A stretch of 64,000 bases of DNA from Methanocaldococcus lauensis (GTDB taxonomy: Archaea > AGJL01 > Methanococci > Methanococcales > Methanocaldococcaceae), in the NCBI RefSeq assembly GCF_902827225.1, contig NZ_LR792632.1, positions 55,030 through 119,029 of the forward strand. The letters are read 5' to 3'. This document shows, piece after piece, positions 31,573-36,352 of this stretch. The notes under the pieces were generated by a model. It saw only the letters and a program-made list of their open reading frames with translations. It did not search any database and was not told the DNA's origin. The position numbers were made by a program, and so were the translations under genes. The number at the start of each line of letters is the position of its first letter. The first letter of the stretch is position 1.

Positions 31573-31593
31573 CTTTTCACCTTAATACATATT

Positions 31594-32847
31594 CTAAGTT
31601 AGTTCAGATACTTTATCTAAAGATGTATAAATCTCTTTCTTGGCATCATTTATTTGATTTAACACATCATTTATATAATCGTTAAGATTAAACTTCTTCC
31701 ACTCTAAATTTCTTTCAGATCTTGGAATTAACCATCGTTTATACCAATATTCATAGAACTCTCTAAATGTGTAATTGTAATATTCTGGTTCAACATTATT
31801 TTTAATGACTTCTTTGAGATTTTTAGCATGGGGGAATAAGTAACATCCTCTTTTTATATTGTGGTAAATAAATGTCTTTCCATTATTACTTTTAAATCCT
31901 AATTCATAGAAAGCTCGTGAAATAAGCCTTAACTTTCGTGAAGGTCCTGTACCATAACCTCTTTTAGTATTAATACCAAGAAGTCTAAGATATTTTAGTA
32001 ATTTTTCATATAGTTCATCAGGTATATGAAAAGTCCCTGAACCTTTTGTATATCCAATAAAAATACTCAAGTTTTTTCCATTATATTTTAACCTCTCATA
32101 TATAGTTCCTTTTCCATAAGCAGAAGTAGTAGTTATAAATAATAATCTTGCAGGAAGTTTTCTGTTCCTGATGAATGTTACTCTATCTTTGTATTTATTT
32201 TCATAAATTTCTCTTATATCCTTACTTGCTAAAGACATTGCAACTAATTTTCCTCCTAATAAATAGTTATATGGTGGAATAGCCCCAACTCTCTGAGCAT
32301 ACATTGACTGATTTAACCAATAATCTTTATCTTCTTTTTTTAATTCTAAGTATTCATCTCTAATTGACGAATGTAAAACAGGACTTTGTAATTGAACTAA
32401 TCCAAAAACTGTGTTATGATATCTATCCCATAATAAATATCTAATCTGTCTCCCAATAGGTCTTTCATAAGGAAGAGACCACCAAGACAAATTCCACCAT
32501 CGAAATAATATAGTCTCTTTTTTTGTTTTTACTACTCTTAACTCTATATCGATATTTTCCACATCCAATTCAGAACCACTTATAGCATATTTTTCAATAA
32601 TGTCAATATTTTTCTCTAAAAATTGTTTATTTTTCTTTAACAATTCTAATTTTCTTATATAATGAACTTTTTTAAGGTCTTCTTTAGAAAATCCATTTGG
32701 AACTATCTCATAATTTTTTGTAATTTTAAATCCCTGTTTTGTAAGTGTAAATATAATTTCTTCTCTTAATTGTTTTTCTAAAGTTTCTAAAATTTCTATT
32801 TTTTTTATACTTTTGCTATGTGTTTTTCTCGTCTTTTGTTTTCTCAT
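31594..32847 (-). CDS. DUF4338 / Druantia DruA-like protein
   Basis: The 417-residue protein has the block order of the DUF4338 family that includes DruA of the Druantia anti-phage system: GRQIRYLLWD (132-141), RVGAIPPYNYLLGGKL (186-201), TTTSAYGKGTIYERL (239-253) and GYTKGSGTFH (265-274). The first 110 residues are charged and helical. DruA's biochemistry is unknown to me. It is the last gene of an operon after NurA-like and HerA-like genes, with 22 bases of gap. I start at ATG 32847 (GGGGTT upstream); TTG 32859 is the longer choice. No DruE helicase is nearby. Confidence 0.82.
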   Translation of the reverse strand: MRKQKTRKTHSKSIKKIEILETLEKQLREEIIFTLTKQGFKITKNYEIVPNGFSKEDLKKVHYIRKLELLKKNKQFLEKNIDIIEKYAISGSELDVENIDIELRVVKTKKETILFRWWNLSWWSLPYERPIGRQIRYLLWDRYHNTVFGLVQLQSPVLHSSIRDEYLELKKEDKDYWLNQSMYAQRVGAIPPYNYLLGGKLVAMSLASKDIREIYENKYKDRVTFIRNRKLPARLLFITTTSAYGKGTIYERLKYNGKNLSIFIGYTKGSGTFHIPDELYEKLLKYLRLLGINTKRGYGTGPSRKLRLISRAFYELGFKSNNGKTFIYHNIKRGCYLFPHAKNLKEVIKNNVEPEYYNYTFREFYEYWYKRWLIPRSERNLEWKKFNLNDYINDVLNQINDAKKEIYTSLDKVSELT

Positions 32848-32869
32848 GTCTAACCCCAAAAATTAAAAT

Positions 32870-34624
32870 TTAATCAAGATTATTGCATTTTTTAAATTCT
32901 TCTGGAAAGTTTAAAGCATCTATTGCTATAGCTTTACTTGTAGGAATAAATGGTATTATTGGTCCTTTTACTATGAAAGATGGCTTTCTCTCTCCACAAC
33001 TTACTAAAGGATCTCCAAATGTTTTATATATATTCAAAGCCTCTTCCCCACCCATAATTTCATCCAAACGTCTCCATTCACTTCCATAATTTAATCCATA
33101 ACCTACAAAGAAAACCCTTAACTGGTCTAAAATTCCCTTGTCAATACTTGAAAATGTTTGGCTAATAAACATCCATCCAATTCCATATTTTCTTGTAGTT
33201 CTAACAGCATCTATTAATAATGATTTTAATCTATCTAACTCCTCATCATCAGGTTTTTCTTTAGGTGCAAATCTATGAGCTTCATCTATAACAACTAACG
33301 TGTTTAGTATTCTATCTTTGAGATATTCTTCTTCCCCAGCTTTTTTAATATAATTAACTAATTCTGCTAATATAAAGTATTTAATAGATATATTCCAAAA
33401 CATTCCTGATTTTCTCGCTTCTTCATCTGCTAAATTAATAATAATTATTTTATCTTTTCCTTTCATTTCTTCTACAATTTCAGCAATAGTTTTACAATTC
33501 TCCGTTTTTAAAAACCATTTTGAAATTTCATCCCATTTTTTTAGAATTATATTTTTATTTTGTTCAATGCTTCTTTTTAATTCTTTCTGATATTTATCAT
33601 CTTTATATACTTCATTACTTCTATTTTTTACTTCTTTTAACACTTCTCTAAAATCTTTAGATAATAAATCTTCAAGGTTATATGGGACTACACATTTTTT
33701 TGACGTGAGATACTTTATTGATTGAATAATTACTCTAATGAGTAATCTCTTCTTATCGCTAAAAACACCAAAATATTTCCAAAAATCTTCAATTCCGATA
33801 TTATTTAACAATCTCTCTAAAACATCTAATGTTTTATCCTTATCATCAAAAATAAGCCTTATATCACCAATACTAACTACTTCCACATCTTTTCCACAAG
33901 ATTTTAGTAAATCCCCCCATTTTATTTTTTTATCATCTTTTTTATCCTTAACGTCATTACTAAACTCCCCTTGTGGATCAAAAATAAATATACTCATCCC
34001 AGCATTCTTTGCATAACAAGTAATTATCATCTTTGCTAACCAACTTTTCCCAGAACCTGTTTTACCAAAGATTCCTAAGTGTATCGCTTCTCCAAAGCCT
34101 CCTTCTCCTTTACTAAAATCCCTAAATTCGAAAGGTATTAAGACATCTGTTCCATAATATTTACCAATAAACGATAGCTTTCTATCCTTTGAAAAAATTT
34201 TATTAAACTCATCCATAAACTTTTTATTAACTAAATATACTTTTGAATTGGTAGATGGAACTGTTCCTAACCTTTCCACCTTAATTTCGTTGCCATCTAC
34301 TGAAAATACCGAAATTATAGATAATCTTCCAATATGCAAATCATGATCTCCACTTATTGGTGAAATGGGTCCTTTTTGTTTAATAATGCCTCTTATTTGT
34401 GATTGCTCAAGCCAAACATTTTTAAGCTCAATATCAGTGATTTGACCAAATATTAAGAGGTCTTTCCCATCCTGACTACTTTTAATTACACAGAGATTCC
34501 CAAGTAAGTTTTTTCCAATAACTTCTTCTTTAATATCAACTTTTAACTCAGTGAGGTTAGATGGAGAACTTACAACCCCAATTTCTTCTAATTCATTATT
34601 ATCTATCATTTTAATTAATTTCAT
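32870..34624 (-). CDS. HerA-like AAA+/FtsK-type ATPase
   Basis: A 584-residue HerA/DUF87 protein with an N-terminal HAS-like barrel (about 1-165), Walker A GKTGSGKS (187-194), Walker B VVIDEAH with Asp447 and Glu448, and a C-terminal GPIIPFIP block. HerA hexamers pump DNA and work with NurA. A GGAGGGG at the end of the upstream gene stands five bases before ATG 34624 and the genes are 2 bases apart, so translation is coupled. The canonical archaeal partners Mre11 and Rad50 are absent, so this is probably not the housekeeping repair copy. Confidence 0.88.
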   Translation of the reverse strand: MKLIKMIDNNELEEIGVVSSPSNLTELKVDIKEEVIGKNLLGNLCVIKSSQDGKDLLIFGQITDIELKNVWLEQSQIRGIIKQKGPISPISGDHDLHIGRLSIISVFSVDGNEIKVERLGTVPSTNSKVYLVNKKFMDEFNKIFSKDRKLSFIGKYYGTDVLIPFEFRDFSKGEGGFGEAIHLGIFGKTGSGKSWLAKMIITCYAKNAGMSIFIFDPQGEFSNDVKDKKDDKKIKWGDLLKSCGKDVEVVSIGDIRLIFDDKDKTLDVLERLLNNIGIEDFWKYFGVFSDKKRLLIRVIIQSIKYLTSKKCVVPYNLEDLLSKDFREVLKEVKNRSNEVYKDDKYQKELKRSIEQNKNIILKKWDEISKWFLKTENCKTIAEIVEEMKGKDKIIIINLADEEARKSGMFWNISIKYFILAELVNYIKKAGEEEYLKDRILNTLVVIDEAHRFAPKEKPDDEELDRLKSLLIDAVRTTRKYGIGWMFISQTFSSIDKGILDQLRVFFVGYGLNYGSEWRRLDEIMGGEEALNIYKTFGDPLVSCGERKPSFIVKGPIIPFIPTSKAIAIDALNFPEEFKKCNNLD

Positions 34625-34626
34625 AT

Positions 34627-35859
34627 TTACCCCTCCGCAGTTCTATAACTGTTAAATAACATTAAGATGTGATAGGGATCGATACCTTTATCAATGAAAT
34701 TTTTTATTGCTTCGTATGATAAATTTTCTTGAGAGATATTTAGCGTGTATGTAGTGCTTTTTACCATTTTATCTGCAATATACAACGGATAGGGCTCCAT
34801 AATGTTGGGATAAAACTTTGTATTATGAATAATTCCTGTAATCACGTTTTTTAATATCTTATCATTTTTGGATATATAACTATTAATTTCAAACCTTATT
34901 ACTCCTCTATTCTTACATCCACTTTCATCAGGAAGTGCATAATAAAATACTTGCCAATTTTTTAATTCATCAGTTATATCATCAATAATTTCTTCGTTTA
35001 TTAATTCCTTATCTTCTTCGTTGATTTTAAAATGAAACTCTTCTTCAAGTAATATATTAAAAGGTCCTAACAACTCTCCAGGTTTTAATATCAAATTTAA
35101 TAAGCCCCTATCATCAATTTTTAATTCTAATTCCATTTCATCTTCAATTTCTTCTTTAACATATGATGTAGTTATTGCTTTTGGGACTGCTACATAGTAC
35201 ATATCTGATCTCTTATTACTTAATATTTCTAAATAATCATTTAATGCATCATTTAATGTTGGAAATTCTAAGACATCATCATTTTCACTATAACCTTCAA
35301 TAACCTCATTTTTTTTATTAATAAAAACATCCCATAATTCTTCACTAACTCCAGATTGTTTGCTCTTATATGCTTGGTGAAGATGAATATATGGAGTTTT
35401 GATAGAGCCATCAATAAATTTTAACATGTGTGGAGCGTTATTTATTAGATGTAACTCTAATTTTACCATAATTCCTCTCAAAACACTACTATTCCTTTCT
35501 TTTCTATCTACAAAAGAAGAATAGTAAAAAAATTTTGGTTCTTTCCATTTATTCTCTTCTTTTGGTGGGGTAACTCCCTCAACAATAATTGAAGATACTT
35601 GAACTAAATCCCAACCTAACAATTGCCTCAATGTATATGCTCCATCTACTCCACAAGATGTAGGAATCGATGTAGTATCTGGAAAAACAGGTTTAATTTT
35701 ATTCTTTGATTCTAAACAATCTCTTATTTTATCCTTTATTTTTAAAAGTTCATTAAATTCAGAGATCATTTTATCTTTCATTTTTGGGAGGTCTTTTTCT
35801 ATTAACTTATCAATTAAACTTTCAGGAACATATAATTCTTTATCGTCATTAATTTGCAT
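34627..35859 (-). CDS. NurA-domain nuclease-like protein
   Basis: The 410-residue protein has the NurA pattern: Asp72 in SCGVDGAYTLRQL, Asp150 in MLKFIDGSIKTP, and a C-terminal YPLYIADKMVK strand-helix. In NurA, acidic residues at these places bind Mn2+ for single-strand endo- and exonuclease activity. The N-terminal helix and an acidic middle part (215-290) are larger than in classic NurA. I start at ATG 35859, with AGGTG seven bases upstream. It is the first gene of the NurA-HerA-DUF4338 operon. Confidence 0.78.
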   Translation of the reverse strand: MQINDDKELYVPESLIDKLIEKDLPKMKDKMISEFNELLKIKDKIRDCLESKNKIKPVFPDTTSIPTSCGVDGAYTLRQLLGWDLVQVSSIIVEGVTPPKEENKWKEPKFFYYSSFVDRKERNSSVLRGIMVKLELHLINNAPHMLKFIDGSIKTPYIHLHQAYKSKQSGVSEELWDVFINKKNEVIEGYSENDDVLEFPTLNDALNDYLEILSNKRSDMYYVAVPKAITTSYVKEEIEDEMELELKIDDRGLLNLILKPGELLGPFNILLEEEFHFKINEEDKELINEEIIDDITDELKNWQVFYYALPDESGCKNRGVIRFEINSYISKNDKILKNVITGIIHNTKFYPNIMEPYPLYIADKMVKSTTYTLNISQENLSYEAIKNFIDKGIDPYHILMLFNSYRTAEG

Positions 35860-35988
35860 ATTCCCCACCTAATATTTCTACATACGTCAATAACAAAATA
35901 AAAAAATAAATATTATAAAAACTTTTTGATTTCAATATATAAATTAATTTACTAAATTAAGAATTTTACTTTTATAATTAATAATAAA

Positions 35989-36023
35989 GAATAAAAAAAT
36001 ACGCCCCAGCCGGGAATCAAACG
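35989..36023. repeat. Degenerate direct repeat of the tRNA-Arg 3' end
   Basis: The segment 36001-36023 matches the 3' end of the tRNA-Arg gene at 36280-36302 (ACGCCCC then GCCGGGA) with three differences in the first 23 bases. The preceding GAATAAAAAA-type tract also matches. A decayed copy of a tRNA 3' end is what an old attachment site leaves. It cannot form a tRNA. Confidence 0.65.
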
Positions 36024-36055
36024 GACCATTTAGAAAAAGTTTCATCAAAACGGAT

Positions 36056-36267
36056 GCATTGCTTCCTAAAGGAAGCAATGCCTCATAATGACATTAATTG
36101 CCCCTGAAAGGGGCAACTTAATGGATGTGGGGTATCCCGAACCATAGGGCTTCGCCCTATTGGGATACCCAAAATTTACACCTCTGCCTTTGGCAGAGGT
36201 GTTAGGGAGTATAGCAATAGAGGGTCTCCCTCTATGCGGTGTATATCAATAGGGGGTTTCCCCCTAT
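36056..36267. repeat. Cluster of six GC-rich palindromic hairpins
   Basis: Six perfect inverted repeats lie in 212 bases: 36056-36081 (11 bp, TAAA loop), 36098-36116 (7 bp plus an outer ATTAA/TTAAT), 36130-36170 (9-bp outer and 7-bp inner stem), 36178-36202 (11 bp), 36217-36235 (8 bp) and 36249-36267 (8 bp). Hairpins 3, 5 and 6 share the form ATAG-G(n)-3-nt loop-C(n)-CTAT with the element at 19957. The stretch is far richer in G+C than its surroundings. No reading frame of note crosses it. Confidence 0.85.
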
Positions 36268-36280
36268 GGAATAAAAAATA

Positions 36281-36352
36281 CGCCCCGGCCGGGATTCGAA
36301 CCCGGGTCTTGACATCCGCAGTGTCAAAGGATATCCGCTACCCCACCGGGGC
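36281..36352 (-). tRNA. tRNA-Arg (anticodon GCG)
   Basis: Read on the minus strand, acceptor GCCCCGG pairs with CCGGGGC. The anticodon stem TGACA/TGTCA closes loop CTGCGGA with anticodon GCG, and the T arm has GGTTCGAATCC. The discriminator is G and CCA is not encoded, unlike the two Gly tRNAs. It reads CGC (and CGU) arginine codons. It lies 64 bases downstream of aspS on the same strand. Confidence 0.92.

Follow-up and report, generated by a model that had tools for sequence, protein, structure and literature searches.

The 64,000-nucleotide stretch of the Methanocaldococcus lauensis genome analysed here (contig NZ_LR792632.1, positions 55,030 to 119,029; "the window") carries a compact cassette of three genes that encode a NurA-like nuclease, a HerA-type DNA-pumping ATPase and a DruA (DUF4338) protein. 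The cassette is an accessory insertion, an add-on to the genome, and the same trio recurs in many bacterial and archaeal phyla. DruA is common to several DNA-handling engines and, in the sampled phyla, which were chosen for containing the trio, most often accompanies HerA. We favour reading the cassette as a Druantia-like defence system in which HerA–NurA replaces DruE and which would probably act in the manner of restriction–modification. Searches of an open-access library of 5.39 million papers found no description of the trio (subscription papers and preprints lie outside that scope).

The three genes and their insertion site

The nurA gene (34627..35859, minus strand, 410 amino acids [AAs]) is the first of the operon and is followed on the same strand by herA (32870..34624, 584 AAs) and druA (31594..32847, 417 AAs); 2 bases separate the first two genes and 22 the last two. 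A preliminary description of this DNA had proposed a tightly coupled trio of NurA-like, HerA-like and DUF4338 proteins, and all three identities are borne out. DruA matches the DUF4338 profile PF14236 with 226 bits against a curated cut-off of 27. HerA matches PF01935 (61.1 bits against a cut-off of 23.2, E 2.1e-16) and the PADLOC HerA model (2.7e-21), and its HerA central domain contains Walker A and Walker B motifs. As a single query the window's NurA matches no family in Pfam, NCBIfam or PADLOC, and PHROGs yielded no more than five weak matches, none with an E value better than 0.03; its identity is read instead from its relatives, since PF09376 is matched by 25 of the 29 sequences aligned with it, and from a predicted RNase H-like fold with conserved acidic residues at the catalytic positions. 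Judged in this way, the window nuclease is a diverged NurA. No model of PADLOC-DB 2.0.0 matches either of two NurA proteins tried, and sequence searches of the PDB gave nothing meaningful with the NurA profile and no match with DruA. Neither SIR2 nor DUF4297 is among the Pfam matches of the three cassette genes. There is no DruE-size open reading frame in the window, the largest encoding 760 AAs and none between 29 and 38.5 kb more than 584 AAs, and a search of the organism's own genome with one DruE, made without a positive control, was empty, which by itself shows nothing. The lack of a DruE-size frame in the window agrees with the absence of DruE claimed earlier.

The cassette lies between lysA and a tRNA-Arg (gcg) gene (36281..36352, minus strand, found with ARAGORN). 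When the window was compared by blastn with the lysA–tRNA-Arg interval of a same-species genome (G005, locus L123) and a same-genus genome (G009, L124), 76 bp were found in each in place of window positions 31586..35988. The cassette NurA and PF14236 were each found in one of 14 genomes of the family (four of which are less than 90% complete), namely the window's own, and PF14236 was found in one of 36 genomes of its phylum; the NurA was not found in the same-species genome. By these counts the cassette is variable within the family. A decayed copy of the 3' end of the tRNA-Arg gene is found near 36001-36024, and a cluster of short near-perfect palindromes with arms of 11–15 nucleotides (36053-36270) separates it from the intact gene. 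Because G005, which lacks the cassette, has the decayed copy at this place too, together with similar palindromes, both belong to the site, and we rejected the view that the cassette used the tRNA fragment for attachment. The idea of a mobile module beside a tRNA and palindromes is upheld as regards accessory status, but the fragment and palindromes mark the site and not the cassette.

The genes flanking the cassette read as lysA and tRNA-Arg/aspS, with no linked mre11 or rad50. Elsewhere in the same genome (about G000:C1 1015333-1022477) there is a housekeeping operon of HerA, Mre11, Rad50 and NurA, of which HerA and NurA were confirmed by profile and Mre11 and Rad50 were called by reading the sequences. 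PF01935 matches five places in this genome, two of them more strongly than the window's HerA, and PF09376 matches a single NurA, which is not that of the cassette. The cassette is thus not the only HerA/NurA pair of its host, and the lack of Mre11/Rad50 partners noted in the preliminary description is correct; it differs from the housekeeping archaeal HerA-NurA-Mre11-Rad50 set in standing apart from that operon, in lacking Mre11 and Rad50, in having DruA and in its accessory distribution.

Recurrence of the trio and the partners of DruA

A scan with the NurA alignment gave 109 confirmed loci, of which 80 on genome contigs were kept, and two more came from a viral scan. DruA is present in 60 of these 82 loci, spread over many bacterial and archaeal phyla: 55 have the arrangement druA–nurA–herA, in four DruA follows HerA, twice on the opposite strand, and one is cut by a contig end. 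The 22 loci without DruA comprise 19 with NurA–HerA only, two with NurA only and one with an odd frame; by our reading nine are cut by contig ends beside the genes and 13 are readable. No gene family beyond the trio occurs in more than three of the 82 loci (BLASTP clusters). Together with the three DruA-centred phylum surveys described below, these counts show that the trio recurs.

In five loci the trio is interrupted by a single additional gene. That of L029 encodes a SACS/NOV_C protein (TmtA according to PADLOC) and that of L030 its homologue; the insert of L080 is homologous to the GmrSD protein found at L043, a locus without DruA whose contig ends 247 bases upstream; L018 has a pentapeptide-repeat protein and L014 a protein with no Pfam match. 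The gene between druA and nurA in L029 and L030 is about 1045 AAs long, and a gene of the same length is found in L260 (below). In a Bathyarchaeota locus (L048:8149-9726) HerA is split over two frames, and this cassette is possibly decayed. Scans of viral contigs found two trio loci (L086 and L087), but these contigs may be chromosomal and wrongly classed as viral.

In the NurA tree of 84 rows the phyla are intermingled, although its bootstrap has not settled and the window's row is long-branched and unsure in its placement. Presence of DruA is clustered on this tree, with 11 changes against 19.8 in shuffles (none of 500 was as low). Pairwise distances among the 50 complete loci and the window are correlated for DruA–NurA (0.685), DruA–HerA (0.489) and NurA–HerA (0.830), each value exceeding every one of 2000 label permutations; this correlated divergence shows joint inheritance, not physical contact.

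PF14236 was also searched for in three other phyla, chosen because each holds a trio locus (the seed genomes are counted): those of L016 (Thermanaerothrix; 400 genomes, 30 with a match), L072 (395 genomes, 59 with a match) and L006 (389 genomes, five with a match). If matches above 200 bits are taken as full-length (this cut and that for readable flanks were set after the data had been seen), these phyla contain 22, seven and three full-length DruAs, respectively, and the window's phylum one, 33 in total, of which three (L191, L192 and L217) are at contig edges. HerA accompanies 28 of the remaining 30, and DruE the other two, both in Chloroflexota (phylum names follow the tree labels and titles of the seed loci). 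The same type of NurA is present with HerA at 21 of the 30 (14, five, one and one in the phyla of L016, L072, L006 and the window), and a more divergent HerA accompanies seven (four, one, two and none). Two counted trio loci (L189 and L193) have NurA split over two frames; at L180 two genes separate DruA from HerA, and at L181 HerA is on the opposite strand, four genes away. L220 is bare in the short stretch, and the wider one (L260) contains DruA, a 1043-residue gene, NurA and HerA. Left out of the 33 were eight loci of the G037 phylum with short or fused DUF4338 proteins (L196-L203), of which L196 and L197 do adjoin this NurA and HerA, all places below the first seven in the survey of the G044 phylum, and G921 and G1016 in that of the G046 phylum.

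The proteins beside the divergent HerA at L204, L205 and L206/L207 were considered as NurA and not counted, since profile–profile comparison gave no match; that of L207 is the only one among L204-L207 with a Pfam NurA match, which is below the cut-off (0.001, 19 against 21 bits). Divergent three-gene versions (L206, L207 and L264; L262 and L263) consist of DruA, the divergent HerA and a protein of about 360–415 AAs with a DG motif near its N-terminus, which may be a remote NurA.

A DruA search of plasmids and phages matched 13 and three records, respectively, and in the three best plasmid records, which were the ones examined, DruA adjoins an annotated DEAD/DEAH helicase gene of 5.4–5.6 kb, as in Druantia. 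In two genomes (L210 and L211) DUF4338 lies within a protein of about 1250 residues that has an SspF-like part and is encoded beside an SspG-like protein. It is because DruA is found with HerA(-NurA), with a DEAD/DEAH helicase or DruE, and fused to an SspF-like protein that we regard it as common to several engines. A contig of a viral collection (L159), possibly a prophage, bears a Druantia system in which DruA is accompanied by a helicase of the DruE type.

These findings place the cassette among known systems. It shares the DruA family with Druantia type I (DruABCDE), its DruA being 28–31% identical to the three plasmid DruAs examined, and differs from it in having HerA-NurA while the window lacks a gene of DruE size; of the five Druantia genes this comparison covers druA and druE. 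According to PMC13316683 (2026), the DExD/H helicase DruE is present in all three Druantia types and the other components have no recognised domain. Like SIR2-HerA and HerA-DUF4297 (cited in PMC12977600), the cassette would combine a HerA-type ring with a nuclease or effector for defence; unlike them it has NurA as the partner and a third conserved subunit, DruA. The DUF4338–SspF-like fusions recall DndFGH/SspFGH, and HerA/FtsK is found in DndH (PMC10853773), but the window's DruA is a free protein with HerA-NurA. That full-length DruA occurs with HerA, for the most part together with NurA, far more often than with DruE in the sampled phyla recasts it as a unit that can be fitted to various DNA translocases.

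The predicted fold of DruA and possible modes of action

DruA has a predicted GNAT acyltransferase fold, flanked by long predicted helices. Its alignment has 33 invariant columns, many of them polar, across 37 sequences that are 28–63% identical to the window's, and in PMC10853773 DUF4338 is called a GNAT domain where it occurs on DndF. This predicted fold would give DruA, a protein without an established role, a testable chemistry, and as the trio is compact and two of its three enzyme families, unlike the third, have known structures, its mechanism should be directly approachable. Three uncharacterised giant-virus proteins in BFVD (A0A3G4ZXG3, A0A5K0UAJ3 and A0A3G4ZRA1) have DruA-like predicted folds (E 3e-18 to 5e-9).

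We tentatively favour the view, plausible but short of an even chance, that the cassette is an anti-virus or anti-plasmid restriction system with HerA as the pump, NurA as the shredder and DruA as the marker of host DNA. Double-stranded DNA of an invader would be driven by the HerA ring into NurA, which would degrade what it is given; ATP-driven degradation of both strands is suggested by the characterised Thermococcus HerA-NurA. DruA, as a putative GNAT-fold acyltransferase, would mark the host DNA so that it is spared, and it is probably DruA that tells self from foreign DNA. Rather more doubtful is the specific version in which DruA, as a GNAT that acylates DNA, gives host DNA a mark like that of Mom, and the HerA-NurA ring nuclease pumps in and shreds DNA that lacks it. 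If true, this would be a third restriction–modification chemistry beside methylation and phosphorothioation, present in many phyla and hidden under the Druantia name, and in classical Druantia I the same writer would work with DruE as its engine. The trio also agrees with the idea that some HerA–NurA pairs serve defence and that the pairs are not repair enzymes alone.

Several observations weigh against this restriction–modification model. The 13 readable loci in which this HerA–NurA has no DruA beside it show that the pair can stand alone, which is awkward for DruA as a self-protection enzyme. In structural ranking phage Mu Mom came first for DruA, but KKT23, RimI and further GNATs had an equal Z; a Foldseek search of the PDB with DruA was empty at E <= 0.001; and profile–profile comparison of DruA with Mom (hhalign, two settings) gave no match, with a probability of 0.1% or less. 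We therefore rejected membership of DruA in the Mom family and retain only that it may work like Mom, and a resemblance of motifs seen by eye in the alignments was not used as evidence. The cassette differs from Mom and the Mom–endonuclease fusions in its lack of profile similarity, and the fold score, tied among GNATs, does not single Mom out. TdpC makes phosphorothioate. The third gene of the cassette, which encodes the predicted GNAT-fold DruA, sets it apart from TdpABC (TdpAB, PDB 8wfd). DUF4338 also occurs on SspF-like proteins, in a slot for which PMC10853773 lists effector enzymes among others. Finally, 61 genes beside eight trio loci matched 80 PADLOC models, whereas 61 of the 122 genes of eight other stretches of the same genomes matched 106, including BREX- and DISARM-like models among the 25 families listed per set; since the control matched more models and two of its stretches (L249 and L252) lie on the trio's own contig, 13–18 kb away, this comparison lends the defence reading no support. 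Restriction, BREX and GmrSD genes do lie near individual loci.

It is possible, though not probable, that DruA is instead a recognition or loading subunit, which would bind invader DNA or a phage protein and recruit or license HerA-NurA without any DNA modification. The same DruA front end would then serve DruE in Druantia (DruE-size helicases on the three plasmids examined among the 13 matched, DruE itself at the two Chloroflexota loci), HerA, mostly with NurA, at the 28 readable survey loci including the window's, and the two Ssp/Dnd-type FGH fusions; the long helices flanking the fold are consistent with such a role. On the other hand, the invariant and often polar columns suggest an active site, and most GNAT proteins are enzymes.

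We think it improbable that DruA is an effector, a GNAT freed upon infection by HerA-NurA or another trigger to acylate tRNA or protein so that the cell stops. GNAT toxins that act on aminoacyl-tRNA are known, and the predicted fold of DruA is that of a GNAT, but no antitoxin-like gene recurs at the loci, as the absence of any common family beyond the trio indicates. Where DUF4338 occurs on DndF, it takes a position that other proteins give to variable domains, HEPN and NERD among them (PMC10853773), which would suit an effector.

Less probable still is a second HerA-NurA repair module, with DruA helping to resect DNA ends or to rescue forks. Descriptions of canonical HerA-NurA mostly treat it as a repair enzyme, and Mre11- and Rad50-like genes (a metallophosphoesterase and an SMC-type protein) lie downstream of this type of NurA at three of the 22 loci without DruA, in a Nitrososphaeraceae genome (L062, by Pfam) and at L079 and L081 (by shared clusters). 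These three lack DruA, however (L079 is cut upstream), the host already owns a housekeeping operon, and the cassette NurA, not found in the same-species genome, is scattered across phyla.

A selfish, transposon-like element that includes DruA and carries HerA-NurA as cargo is very unlikely: short DUF4338 proteins (about 300 AAs) are multi-copy in several genomes of the G044 phylum, for example as three near-equal copies in G665, but PF14236 is single-copy in all 11 trio genomes checked that have it (11 of 13 genomes searched had exactly one match, the other two having been chosen for a DruA-less locus), the cassette has no open reading frame of at least 60 AAs other than the three genes and short frames that overlap them, and its ends share no pair of repeats 14 bases or longer. 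The short DUF4338 proteins, along with others of about 700 AAs, are found in multiple, partly broken copies per genome (L222-L244; G665, G778, G550 and G662), and both kinds look like proteins of mobile elements and not like defence DruA.

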